Assembly: GCA_022791975.1 (NCBI GenBank)
Contig: JAAWAC010000044.1
Span: 141,230 to 205,229, forward strand
Origin: Lachnospiraceae bacterium
Lineage (GTDB): Bacteria; Bacillota; Clostridia; Lachnospirales; Lachnospiraceae
Reading direction: 5' to 3'
DNA length: 64,000 bases
Numbering within the stretch: position 1 is the first letter of the stretch; the number at the start of each line of letters is the position of its first letter. The position numbers were made by a program, and so were the translations under genes. The notes under the pieces were generated by a model that was not told the DNA's origin, did no database searches, and saw nothing but the letters and a program-made list of their open reading frames with translations. Positions 54,017 through 56,764 of the stretch are shown piece by piece.

Positions 54017-54057
54017 AGCAATTCCTCCTTTCTAGGTTCCAAACTGCCTAAAAAGGC

Positions 54058-54092
54058 AAAAAAAGAACCCTTTGCTGCCAAAAGAGTTCTTT
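54058..54092 (-). terminator. attenuator terminator of the ABC-F leader
   Basis: On the minus strand AAAGAACTCTTT (54092-54081) pairs with AAAGGGTTCTTT (54073-54062, one G-U), loop TGGCAGC, then seven T (54064-54058). It lies about 40 bases before the start codon and would stop transcription before the resistance gene. Confidence 0.9.
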
Positions 54093-54226
54093 ATATTCCA
54101 TAGCCATATGGATCCTTTTGAGGAATATTTCCGCACAAAAAGAGAGACTATGAGAACATAATCTACTTTTGGCAGCATGACAAAAATGCAGGATCATAAG
54201 ATTCCCGCGATCTTTTTCCCTCATGC
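54074..54226 (-). promoter_or_regulatory. antiterminator and competing stem of the ABC-F leader
   Basis: Reading the minus strand, GCTGCCAAAAG (54176-54166) is perfectly complementary to CTTTTGGCAGC (54084-54074), which forms the loop and right half of the terminator stem's left arm. Pairing of the two destroys the terminator. Competing with this, GCATGA (54226-54221, the end of the second leader ORF) pairs with TCATGC (54180-54175), and AAAAA (54217-54213) with TTTTT (54186-54182). A ribosome halted on the leader ORF would block the competing stem and free the antiterminator, switching the gene on. Confidence 0.75.
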
Positions 54227-54238
54227 AAACAAAAGCAT
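54221..54238 (-). CDS. leader peptide ORF 2 (MLLFA)
   Basis: ATG CTT TTG TTT GCA TGA, five codons, with AGGAGA 5-6 bases upstream as ribosome binding site. The last two codons lie in the RNA stem that competes with the antiterminator, as expected of a ribosome-stalling control peptide. Expression is inferred from position and signals. Confidence 0.6.
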   Translation of the reverse strand: MLLFA

Positions 54239-54239
54239 A

Positions 54240-54251
54240 TTATCTCCTCAT
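54240..54251 (-). CDS. leader peptide ORF 1 (MRR)
   Basis: ATG AGG AGA TAA, three codons, preceded by AGAGGTGA. Its AGG AGA codons are themselves the Shine-Dalgarno sequence of the second leader ORF, whose ATG begins one base after this stop. A ribosome on ORF 1 would hide the binding site of ORF 2. Confidence 0.5.
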   Translation of the reverse strand: MRR

Positions 54252-54280
54252 CTTTTCACCTCTCTCCGTTTGATGGGACG

Positions 54281-54309
54281 ATAATATCACACTCTCTTTT
54301 ATTTGTCAA
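54281..54309 (-). promoter_or_regulatory. promoter of the resistance ABC-F leader
   Basis: On the minus strand TTGACA (54309-54304), 17-bp spacer, TATTAT (54286-54281). The -35 box overlaps by five bases the -35 box of the divergent sensor-kinase promoter. Leader transcript length to the start codon is about 258 bases. Confidence 0.85.
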
Positions 54310-54331
54310 GTGAGGAAGATTATGGTATAAT
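54303..54331 (+). promoter_or_regulatory. promoter of the hybrid sensor kinase gene
   Basis: TTGTCA (54303-54308), 17-bp spacer, TATAAT (54326-54331), 31 bases before the ATG. It shares positions 54304-54308 with the -35 box of the ABC-F promoter, so two polymerases cannot bind at once. Confidence 0.85.
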
Positions 54332-54361: not shown

Positions 54362-56764
54362 ATGGAGGGATTAGAAATAAGCAGAGTACAGGAGCAGGAG
54401 GGGCTTTTTCATGCCCTGGAAAATACGGATATCTGTACCTTCTGGTATTATCCCCAAAAGAAGCTTATCACTATTGATGACAGGACAGCCCAGATGTATG
54501 GCTGTAAAAATGTGTACCCGGATATGCCCACAAGCTTTGCCGAGGATTTTGTACACCCTTCCACCAGGGCGGTATTTTGTGAGATGTATTACCGGATTGA
54601 TCGGGGAGATCGGACAGCTCAGGCATCCTTTAGCAGCCAAGACAGGAGGAACTGGTGTACGGTTACCCTTACCACAGTTGCCTATGATGAGCAAGGACGG
54701 CCAGAGAAAACCTATGGCATTATCCAAAATATATCAGATTTGAAGCTTCAGGAAGCAGAGTACCACAGCAATAGTATGCGGCTGATAAACATTATCAGCG
54801 CGCTCAGCAAGATTTACATGTTTAATTATTTTATAGATCTGCAAACCGGCACCTTTATGGAGATCGTGGGACTGGACTATATCACCAAGGTTTTGGGGAC
54901 CGAAGGGGATGTGGTCTCTGCTTTTAGGCTTTTTTGTGACACCCTTATTGAACAGAATTCCAGGGCAGAATTTGAGGCGTTTGTGGATGTCAGCACTTTG
55001 GCGGAGCGAATCGGCAGCCAGCAAAACATTTCTCTGGAATACTTAAGCATCAAGCAGGGGTGGTGCCGAAGCAACTTTATAGTGGTGAAGCGGGATGACT
55101 CCGGCCGAGCCATTCAGGTGGAGTTTGTGGTGGAAAATATCAGTGCCCAGCGGGAAAAGGAGCTGGAGGATAAGGAAGCTTTGGAAAAGGCCTATGCGGA
55201 GGCCAATAAGGCAAACGCCAGTAAATCTGCTTTTTTAAATAATATGTCCCATGACATCCGAACCCCTATGAATGCCATTGTGGGCTTTTCCGCCATAGCA
55301 GCTTCCCATATTGAGGACCAGGAAAGAGTGCGGGATTGCATTGATAAGATCACGGCTTCCAGCAAACATCTGTTGTCCATAATCAATGAAGTGCTGGATA
55401 TGAGCCGGATTGAGAGCGGGAAGATCGAGCTTCAGGAGCAGGAGGCGAACCTTCCTACTATTCTCCATGACTTTATGAATATGATCCAGGAACAGGTTCG
55501 GATAAAGGGACTGGCTCTTTCCATTGATACCATGAATTTGTCCCATGAAAATGTATATGCGGATGAGGGAAGAATTCACAGGATTCTTTTGAATCTGGTG
55601 GGAAATGCCATTAAATTTACCCCAGTGGGAGGCAGCATTTTTATCCGTCTGGCGGAAAAGCCTCAGACTTCTCCCAAATATGGCAATTATGTGATTTCTG
55701 TCAGGGATACGGGAATTGGAATGAGCGAGGAGTTTCTGCCCCATGTGTTTGAGGCCTTTGAGCGGGAGCGGACCTCCACCATCAGCAAGATGGAGGGTAC
55801 AGGACTGGGGATGGCCATTACCAAGAACATTATTGAGATTATGGGTGGCACCATTCAGGCGGAGAGCCGGCAGGGAGAAGGATCTGTGTTCACGGTGGAG
55901 CTTCCTCTAAAGCTTATAGAAAAGAGGTTGGAGAATCCCAGGATTGAGCGGCTGGCAGGCCTTCACGCCATGGTCATTGACGATGATTACAATGTTTGTG
56001 ACAGTGTTTCCAAAATGTTGGATAAAATTGGTATGGAGCCGGAATGGATCATGTCGGGAAAGGAGGCACTTCTCCACACCAAGTTGGCCCTGGAGATGGG
56101 GCGGAGTTTTTCTGCGTTTTTTGTTGACTGGAAAATGCCGGATATTCGCGGAGTTGAGGTGGTCCGTCAGCTTCGGGTTTTGGTGGGTCCCAAAGTGCCC
56201 ATTTTTATTCTCACTGCCTATGATTTCAGTGATATTGAACAGGAGGCCGTGGAGGCTGGAATGACTGGCTTTTGTCAAAAGCCTCTGTTTTTATCAAAGC
56301 TTCGCAGAGTGCTTTTGGAAGCCTTTGGCGAGGGAGAAGAGGAAGAGGTAGTCCTGGATGAGAGCTGGAAGGAAGGCCTGAAGGGAAAACATATTCTTCT
56401 GGTGGAGGATAATGAACTGAATCAAGAGATTGCAGAGGAAATACTCTCAGAGGTTGGATTTGAGGTGGATACAGCGGAAAATGGCAGGATTGCTGTGGAG
56501 AAGTTGGCAAAGGCAGAAGAGGGGACTTATGATCTGGTATTGATGGATATTCAGATGCCTGTGATGGATGGCTATGAGGCAACAAGAACCATTCGGGCCA
56601 TGGAGGCTCCTTGGATACTAAGACTTCCTATTTTGGCCATGACGGCTAACGCCTTCGAGGAGGACAAGAAAAAGGCTATGGAGGCCGGAATGAATGGACA
56701 TTTGTCCAAACCCATTGACACAGAGAAGCTGTTTCAGACGTTGTCAGAAATTTTGATATCATAG
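54362..56764 (+). CDS. cytoplasmic hybrid sensor histidine kinase with two receiver domains
   Basis: An 800-residue signalling protein without membrane segments. A PAS-like domain (about 15-125, ending YGIIQNIS) and a second sensor region (130-265, ending VENISAQREKE) precede HisKA with His297 in NMSHDIRTPMNAIVG. The ATPase domain has GTGLGMAITKNI. Receiver 1 (about 535-660) has Asp589 in FFVDWKMPD; receiver 2 (about 678-798) has VEDNELNQ and Asp729 in VLMDIQMPVMDG. AGGAGG precedes ATG 54362. No output domain is present, so phosphate must go to another protein. It is divergent from the resistance ABC-F gene with overlapping promoters. Signal unknown. Confidence 0.92.
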   Translation: MEGLEISRVQEQEGLFHALENTDICTFWYYPQKKLITIDDRTAQMYGCKNVYPDMPTSFAEDFVHPSTRAVFCEMYYRIDRGDRTAQASFSSQDRRNWCTVTLTTVAYDEQGRPEKTYGIIQNISDLKLQEAEYHSNSMRLINIISALSKIYMFNYFIDLQTGTFMEIVGLDYITKVLGTEGDVVSAFRLFCDTLIEQNSRAEFEAFVDVSTLAERIGSQQNISLEYLSIKQGWCRSNFIVVKRDDSGRAIQVEFVVENISAQREKELEDKEALEKAYAEANKANASKSAFLNNMSHDIRTPMNAIVGFSAIAASHIEDQERVRDCIDKITASSKHLLSIINEVLDMSRIESGKIELQEQEANLPTILHDFMNMIQEQVRIKGLALSIDTMNLSHENVYADEGRIHRILLNLVGNAIKFTPVGGSIFIRLAEKPQTSPKYGNYVISVRDTGIGMSEEFLPHVFEAFERERTSTISKMEGTGLGMAITKNIIEIMGGTIQAESRQGEGSVFTVELPLKLIEKRLENPRIERLAGLHAMVIDDDYNVCDSVSKMLDKIGMEPEWIMSGKEALLHTKLALEMGRSFSAFFVDWKMPDIRGVEVVRQLRVLVGPKVPIFILTAYDFSDIEQEAVEAGMTGFCQKPLFLSKLRRVLLEAFGEGEEEEVVLDESWKEGLKGKHILLVEDNELNQEIAEEILSEVGFEVDTAENGRIAVEKLAKAEEGTYDLVLMDIQMPVMDGYEATRTIRAMEAPWILRLPILAMTANAFEEDKKKAMEAGMNGHLSKPIDTEKLFQTLSEILIS

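Follow-up and report, generated by a model that had tools for sequence, protein, structure and literature searches.

The leader of a predicted Lsa-type ABC-F resistance gene in the window (the whole 64,000-nucleotide stretch of Lachnospiraceae DNA that was analysed) appears to be a transcription attenuator, in which a drug-stalled ribosome on the three-codon upstream open reading frame (uORF) MRR would likely uncover an antiterminator and so allow the gene to be read. We assign this reading a probability of roughly 0.86. At the level of sequence, comparison with related leaders establishes the uORF, three segments with competing pairings, a terminator-like hairpin with a T-run, and covariation of both alternative pairings. 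An earlier reading, made from the letters of the window alone (the sequence-only reading), had proposed a ribosome-controlled attenuator with three competing pairings ahead of this gene. That proposal is supported by covariation and by snapshot folds carrying a ribosome footprint, and only partly by full-length folds.

The leader occupies about 260 bases of the minus strand and is flanked by a divergent histidine-kinase-like gene and by the gene for the 508-aa ABC-F protein (Table 1). The elements named in the sequence-only reading (both ORFs, the three pairings, the terminator and its seven T) are all confirmed in position on this strand. We infer a transcription start near 54274. A promoter-like site (11/12 matches) on the plus strand at 54303-54331 is directed toward the divergent gene and overlaps the attenuator's own promoter-like site.

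Table 1 Features of the leader and its flanking genes in the window.
Feature	Position	Strand	Basis or remark
Lsa-type ABC-F ribosomal protection protein, 508 aa	52490..54016	-	NCBIfam models, Lsa(A) match
Shine-Dalgarno AAGGAGG of the resistance gene	54024..54030	-	Sequence; outside the terminator
Intrinsic terminator: hairpin 54092-54062 and seven T 54064-54058	54058..54092	-	Pattern scan; hairpin and T-run recur in relatives
Segment 3, CTTTTGGCAGC	54074..54084	-	Partner of segment 2 (antiterminator) or part of the terminator hairpin
Segment 2, anti-antiterminator 3′ arm (parts 54180-54175, 54171-54150, 54148-54142)	54142..54180	-	Covariation and swap tests
Segment 1, anti-antiterminator 5′ arm (helix 1 54264-54258, helix 2 54251-54230, helix 3 54226-54221)	54221..54264	-	Covariation (alignment A2) and own-versus-swapped test
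Five-codon ORF MLLFA, ATG CTT TTG TTT GCA TGA	54221..54238	-	Sequence
Three-codon uORF MRR, ATG AGG AGA TAA	54240..54251	-	Likely sensor
Shine-Dalgarno GGAGAGAGGTG of the three-codon ORF	54257..54267	-	Sequence; its 54264-54258 form the 5′ arm of helix 1
Promoter-like TTGACA-17-TATTAT, TG before -10	54281..54309	-	Pattern scan, 11/12 matches; near-consensus
Histidine-kinase-like gene	54362-56764	divergent from the ABC-F gene	Named by eye

The pairing of GCATGA (54226-54221) with TCATGC (54180-54175) described in the sequence-only reading is present above the helix that covers the uORF, but it makes up only a fraction of the stem. The full stem is far longer and covers the whole three-codon ORF, such that the Shine-Dalgarno sequence, the start codon, codons 2 and 3, the stop codon and the CTTTTG that comes next face 54171-54142. 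Within segment 2, GCTGCCAAAAG (54176-54166) doubles as the 5′ arm of the antiterminator, where it can form 11 perfect pairs with CTTTTGGCAGC (54084-54074). The minimum-energy fold of the window leader (-79.3 kcal/mol) is far more stable than those of shuffled sequences (-54.4 kcal/mol; z -5.9; 0 of 200 shuffles), and the window gives 0 matches to Rfam 15 families at the gathering score. Taken alone, the terminator pattern is near chance in the window (1 found versus 0.5 expected); support for the terminator comes from the recurrence of its hairpin in relatives, not from the pattern score alone.

For the protein encoded downstream, the best model is the NCBIfam Lsa model NF000167, but the score of 629.3 bits does not reach its curated cut-off of 750, and for this reason we use the label Lsa-type rather than Lsa. 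The generic ABC-F protection model NF000355 is passed (443.7 bits versus a cut-off of 380), and among proteins of known structure Lsa(A) is the nearest in sequence (7nhk, E 1.5e-110).

Related leaders were collected from several sources. Each of 61 genomes near that of the window contains some ABC-F match, and in 27 of them the gene is matched below 1e-100. A family sample of 397 genomes includes 60 with a match at 1e-190 or better. The upstream regions of these 60, together with that of one further genome (G002) and those of the best 80 of 580 relatives from GTDB species genomes, mostly titled Lachnospiraceae, make up 141 regions, 129 of which are distinct. The leader is recognized by motif in 86 of the 129. 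The 43 regions that are not caught include divergent members of the family, at least L125 and L137, in which segment 2 is present, and G344 and G417, which match a covariance model of the stem; other uncaught regions carry different short uORFs, such as MxxR types. Certain more distant Lsa-type loci (L015, L019 and similar) have another leader type, MxxFSC-like, in which a TTTCTTG stretch is found again in the terminator region. These leaders probably use an equivalent logic with another peptide.

Because the uORF motif was used to select the 86 leaders, the presence of the uORF among them is circular. An independent count is provided by 72 leaders anchored on the downstream motif alone, among which a Shine-Dalgarno sequence followed by ATG-x-x-stop lies upstream in 69, compared with 2 of 72 for the opposite-strand control. 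The exceptions are L125, which has no such ORF, L129, whose ORF has two codons (MK), and L137, with a seven-codon ORF. Two hallmarks of a uORF attenuator are thus found here: a conserved short uORF with its own Shine-Dalgarno sequence, and an intrinsic terminator between this uORF and the gene.

Comparison of leaders from relatives for covariation, which the sequence-only reading had put forward as a check, supports both the anti-antiterminator (34 pairs, 62 leaders) and the antiterminator (own versus swapped segments, 57 leaders). For the former we used alignment A2, which holds 62 of 70 non-redundant leaders, the eight with long inserts (L037, L057, L097, L124, L140, L157, L177 and L191) being omitted. 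Standard pairs occupy 94.5% of the cells of the stem (94.0% of those in helix 1). Fifteen pairs have changed on both sides, versus 6.9 in shuffles, and on each of five measures the observed value is reached by 0 of 500 shuffles. When the stem partner is slid by 1-3 columns, pairing is only 41-56%, a comparison that is biased against the slid versions by a structure drawn from the window and the consensus. Relatedness among the leaders is kept by shuffling and removed by sliding.

Furthermore, segments pair better with their own partners than with those of other leaders. The mean energy of the segment 1:2 pairing is -32.4 kcal/mol for own partners and -29.0 kcal/mol for swapped ones (0 of 2000 permutations) in the 81 of 86 leaders with a clear segment 2. 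For the segment 2:3 pairing, the values are -15.4 and -14.2 (0 of 5000 permutations) in the 57 leaders with a terminator score above 20; segment 2 was not used in locating the terminators. Both permutation tests ignore relatedness among leaders. A hairpin with a T-run is present in 61 of the 81 leaders, and the hairpin scan gave none in 20; three of the 57 (L158, L161 and L191) have hairpins that lack the segment-3 motif.

If the attenuator model is correct, the absence of a ribosome from the uORF would leave segments 1 and 2 paired, and folding predicts that the terminator then forms. A footprint at the start or stop codon of the uORF is predicted to free segment 2, whose pairing with segment 3 would precede completion of the terminator. 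Specifically, a peptidyl-transferase drug that stalls a ribosome on Met-Arg-Arg would permit RNA polymerase to continue into the Lsa-type gene. Drugs that halt ribosomes on the start codon or directly after it, namely lincosamides, pleuromutilins and streptogramin A, would be the inducers, by analogy with vmlR, cplR and are5sc.

We folded 57 leaders with and without such a footprint. Snapshot folds stop inside the terminator, at either of two lengths. When no ribosome is present, 2 and 0 of the 57 leaders adopt the antiterminator in these folds. A footprint at the uORF start codon raises these numbers to 53 and 49, and one at the stop codon to 51 and 52, whereas a control mask of similar size placed between segments 2 and 3 gives 1 and 0. 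Together with the covariation and the swap tests, these snapshots argue for mutually exclusive anti-antiterminator and antiterminator structures. Full-length minimum-energy folds contain the terminator in all 57 leaders without a ribosome, and a footprint yields the antiterminator in 11 (uORF start) or 20 (uORF stop) of the 57, the window among them. Such folding is a weak test, and the modelled effect at equilibrium is weak. Since so few full-length folds flip, the switch decision would have to fall during transcription.

The window also holds the second mini-ORF, MLLFA, the ATG of which lies one base past the MRR stop codon with AGGAGA four bases ahead of it. From this arrangement the sequence-only reading derived a nested cascade, in which MRR and MLLFA are both translated, the AGG AGA codons serve as the second ribosome-binding site and a stall on either peptide opens the gene. 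Both ORFs are indeed there, and a footprint on the second one likewise flips the fold of the window. The cascade is nevertheless improbable. An ATG occupies the MLLFA start place in only 1 of the 86 leaders, that of the window; TTG is found in 5, and none of ATG, GTG or TTG in 80 (the triplets are TTA 29, CTG 16, CGA 11, CTA 10, TTG 5, TCG 4, ATG 1 and others). The nearest relative, L002, whose protein is 84% identical, has GTA at this place and instead carries an ATG that overlaps the stop codon and opens a 47-codon frame. The conservation expected of both mini-ORFs therefore holds for the three-codon ORF (69 of 72) and fails for the five-codon one (1 of 86). Moreover, the ATG of MLLFA is accompanied by a weaker stem, because the A of the window leaves column 29 unpaired. 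Standard pairing at this column is seen in 60 of 62 leaders (C-G 29, U-G 28, U-A 3), and the window is one of the two exceptions.

The proposed role of AGG AGA as a Shine-Dalgarno sequence for MLLFA fits the spacing in the window, but such codons are frequent in leaders that lack a second ATG ORF, given that codons 2 and 3 are all purine in 53 of the 86 leaders. An 18-base frame from the MLLFA start place to a stop codon exists in 57 of the 86. This is expected because CTTTTG and CATGA, which holds TGA, are both paired elements, and with the frame already set in this way an ATG needs only one or two base changes. The comparison thus suggests that the MLLFA ORF is probably a by-product of paired sequence and not a sensor; it may be translated in the species of the window. 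The example shows how RNA pairing can yield a second mini-ORF as a by-product.

Another candidate, a TTG mini-ORF (TTG NNN RCA TGA) seen in many leaders, was rejected. No Shine-Dalgarno sequence lies ahead of it, and its spacing to CATG varies, with altered spacing breaking the TTG frame and CATG being kept in G003, G170, L166, L170, L171, L191, L196 and L199. Pairing explains this pattern better than translation, because CATG persists where the frame breaks and there is no Shine-Dalgarno sequence.

The closest published parallel to the proposed cascade is the are5sc leader of Streptomyces, for which passages of PMC12421871 report conserved overlapping uORFs, MLV and MRS, before an ABC-F gene. 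The nested layout, which had seemed unusual in the sequence-only reading, is therefore already in print. The two leaders differ in that the uORF pair is reported as conserved in are5sc, whereas the second ATG here occurs in the window alone among 86 leaders. Toeprints described in the same passages show translation of the first uORF only, which argues further against a cascade.

Codon 2 of the uORF encodes Arg or Lys in 81 of the 86 leaders (Arg 59, Lys 22; AGR 48, AAR 22, CGR 11, other 5). A change from AGR to CGR retains Arg and alters the A of column 19. Among the five CGR leaders in A2, column 19 is unpaired in four and repaired as C-G in one (L131). On a tree of 83 proteins, 10 of them with CGR, built by the fast method FastTree, the distribution of CGR versus the rest needs at least nine changes. 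A G at column 19, which could form a G-U pair but would encode Gly or Glu, occurs in 0 of 86 leaders, and CAR (Gln) at codon 2 occurs in 0, versus 11 CGR among the 59 Arg codons (Fisher p 0.03, uncorrected for relatedness). This pattern suggests that the residue is under selection in addition to the stem, and we regard it as a lead, not proof. It raises a testable question. Passages of prior papers report that the early stalling of ribosomes by lincosamides, pleuromutilins and streptogramin A is largely independent of the next residue; either such stalling is indifferent to this residue, or a basic one is preferred.

The same codons bear on a conventional amino-acid attenuator, of the kind found in biosynthetic operons, in which ribosomes would stall at AGG AGA when charged arginine tRNA is scarce. 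In favour of such a device, both codons between start and stop of the uORF encode Arg, and codon 2 is Arg in 59 of the 86 leaders. However, Lys replaces Arg at codon 2 in 22 leaders, codon 3 is a non-Arg sense codon (mainly Lys and Ile) in 41 of 86, and the downstream gene encodes an ABC-F protection protein, not a biosynthetic enzyme. AGA and AGG (5.8 and 7.6 per 1000 of 17,350 window codons) are also not unusually rare, with CGG the commonest at 19.4. We judge this alternative very unlikely. Equally hard to credit is a ribosome-independent leader, in which a protein or small molecule on the long stem sets termination and the mini-ORF is incidental: the long conserved stem is compatible with a ligand, but 69 of 72 anchored leaders retain the Shine-Dalgarno sequence, start and stop of the three-codon ORF, Arg is kept through AGR-CGR changes that cost the pair at column 19 in four of the five CGR leaders of A2, and the window matches no Rfam family.

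The attenuator reading of the window leader places it within a known type of control, since three- and four-codon uORFs before ABC-F genes are published. Control of ABC-F genes by uORFs is already known, and the window leader adds an example of it. Its layout resembles that of the cplR leader of Clostridioides difficile as outlined in passages of PMC10201436, where a Met-Arg three-codon uORF (MR[I/M]) in a 5′ hairpin precedes a terminator, an antiterminator and an ABC-F gene; MRI (11) and MRM (2) also occur among the 86 leaders. According to these passages, the cplR terminator also hides the Shine-Dalgarno sequence of the gene, whereas that of the window (54030-54024) lies outside the terminator, and CplR is an ARE1 protein whereas the protein of the window is Lsa-type.

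The vmlR leader of Bacillus subtilis, in the account of it drawn from parts of PMC9226507, likewise has a three-codon uORF (MIN) in an anti-antiterminator stem, an antiterminator and an intrinsic terminator. Start-codon and Shine-Dalgarno mutants of this leader are without induction, and a NusG-dependent pause was shown. M-[R/K]-x prevails among the 86 leaders, whereas in VmlR an MRK uORF had a lower efficiency than MIN. The VmlR2 uORF is given as MK[L/Q] in passages of PMC10201436 and PMC9226507. The Lsa(A) leader shares with the window leader a short uORF and the same downstream protein family but has another peptide, with the consensus MAGN, reported for homologues that share 80% or more identity with Lsa(A) (PMC10201436, in part). 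Literature searches on ABC-F attenuators and on this leader gave no description of the present Lachnospiraceae leader family with its covariation, of the codon-2 pattern or of a position before a GNAT-type gene, which does not prove absence from print. With its strong covariation, the family extends the set of uORF attenuators studied ahead of ABC-F resistance genes. Lachnospiraceae with this leader likely turn such genes on only upon ribosome stalling by drugs.

The covariance model of the stem finds matches in 50 of the 397 family-sample genomes, at one place each apart from the mirror strand. In the order sample, 8 of 295 genomes match, one outside the family (G656, weak). The class sample of 391 genomes has 4 with a match, and two of these 4 lie outside the family (G713 and G941, both weak). 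The G656 match is a MINFSCR-type leader ahead of an Lsa-type gene, and G713 has ACG at the expected ATG place of the uORF. Opposite-strand matches were considered as second leaders and left uncounted, as they fall at the same places and mirror the near-palindromic stem.

We also inspected the downstream genes in 17 genomes with pattern or model matches but no strong Lsa match. The leader is followed by Lsa-type genes, with 48-67% identity in the aligned region, in G080, G137, G140, G257, G325, G421 and G656. A different ABC-F group, with about 23% identity to Lsa, stands behind a related leader in G122, G291 and G314 (L212, L214 and L215); the two members that were scored, G122 (289 bits) and G314 (310 bits), fall under the generic protection cut-off of 380. 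The uORF peptides of these three are MRNR, MRK and MSR, respectively. The leader matches of G122 (8.1e-5) and G291 (3.7e-7) are weak, and the G291 gene starts about 410 bases on. The G314 sequence also shows, behind its ABC-F gene, the beginning of a protein related to that of G226.

In this G226 protein (L113:390-1664), a GNAT domain is preceded by a part with a weak match to the uncharacterised family PRK06761 (146 bits, cut-off 270) and with a P-loop-like GxxGxGKST seen by eye. In G077 (L115:1554-2033), the leader precedes a GNAT protein alone. It is possible that GNAT proteins of these types are a drug-modifying enzyme under the same switch. More broadly, the leader could be a portable drug-sensing device of Lachnospiraceae, with a basic residue at codon 2 that is selected and aids the stall, placed before Lsa-type ABC-F genes, genes of a second ABC-F group and one for a GNAT-type enzyme. 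We regard this wider proposal as tentative and somewhat doubtful, because only five CGR leaders are readable against the stem and the non-Lsa cases are few.

Of the remaining matches, a phosphoesterase gene begins about 465 bases on in G074 and may be unrelated, the contig ends at the leader in G261, and G370, with three mismatches and no covariance-model match, was set aside as likely chance. The leader is also present before shortened or interrupted Lsa-type genes: G369 (L116) has an Lsa-type N-terminal piece and then a relative of the G226 protein, and G360 (L121) has an interrupted Lsa-type gene together with a gene that is MATE-like by eye.
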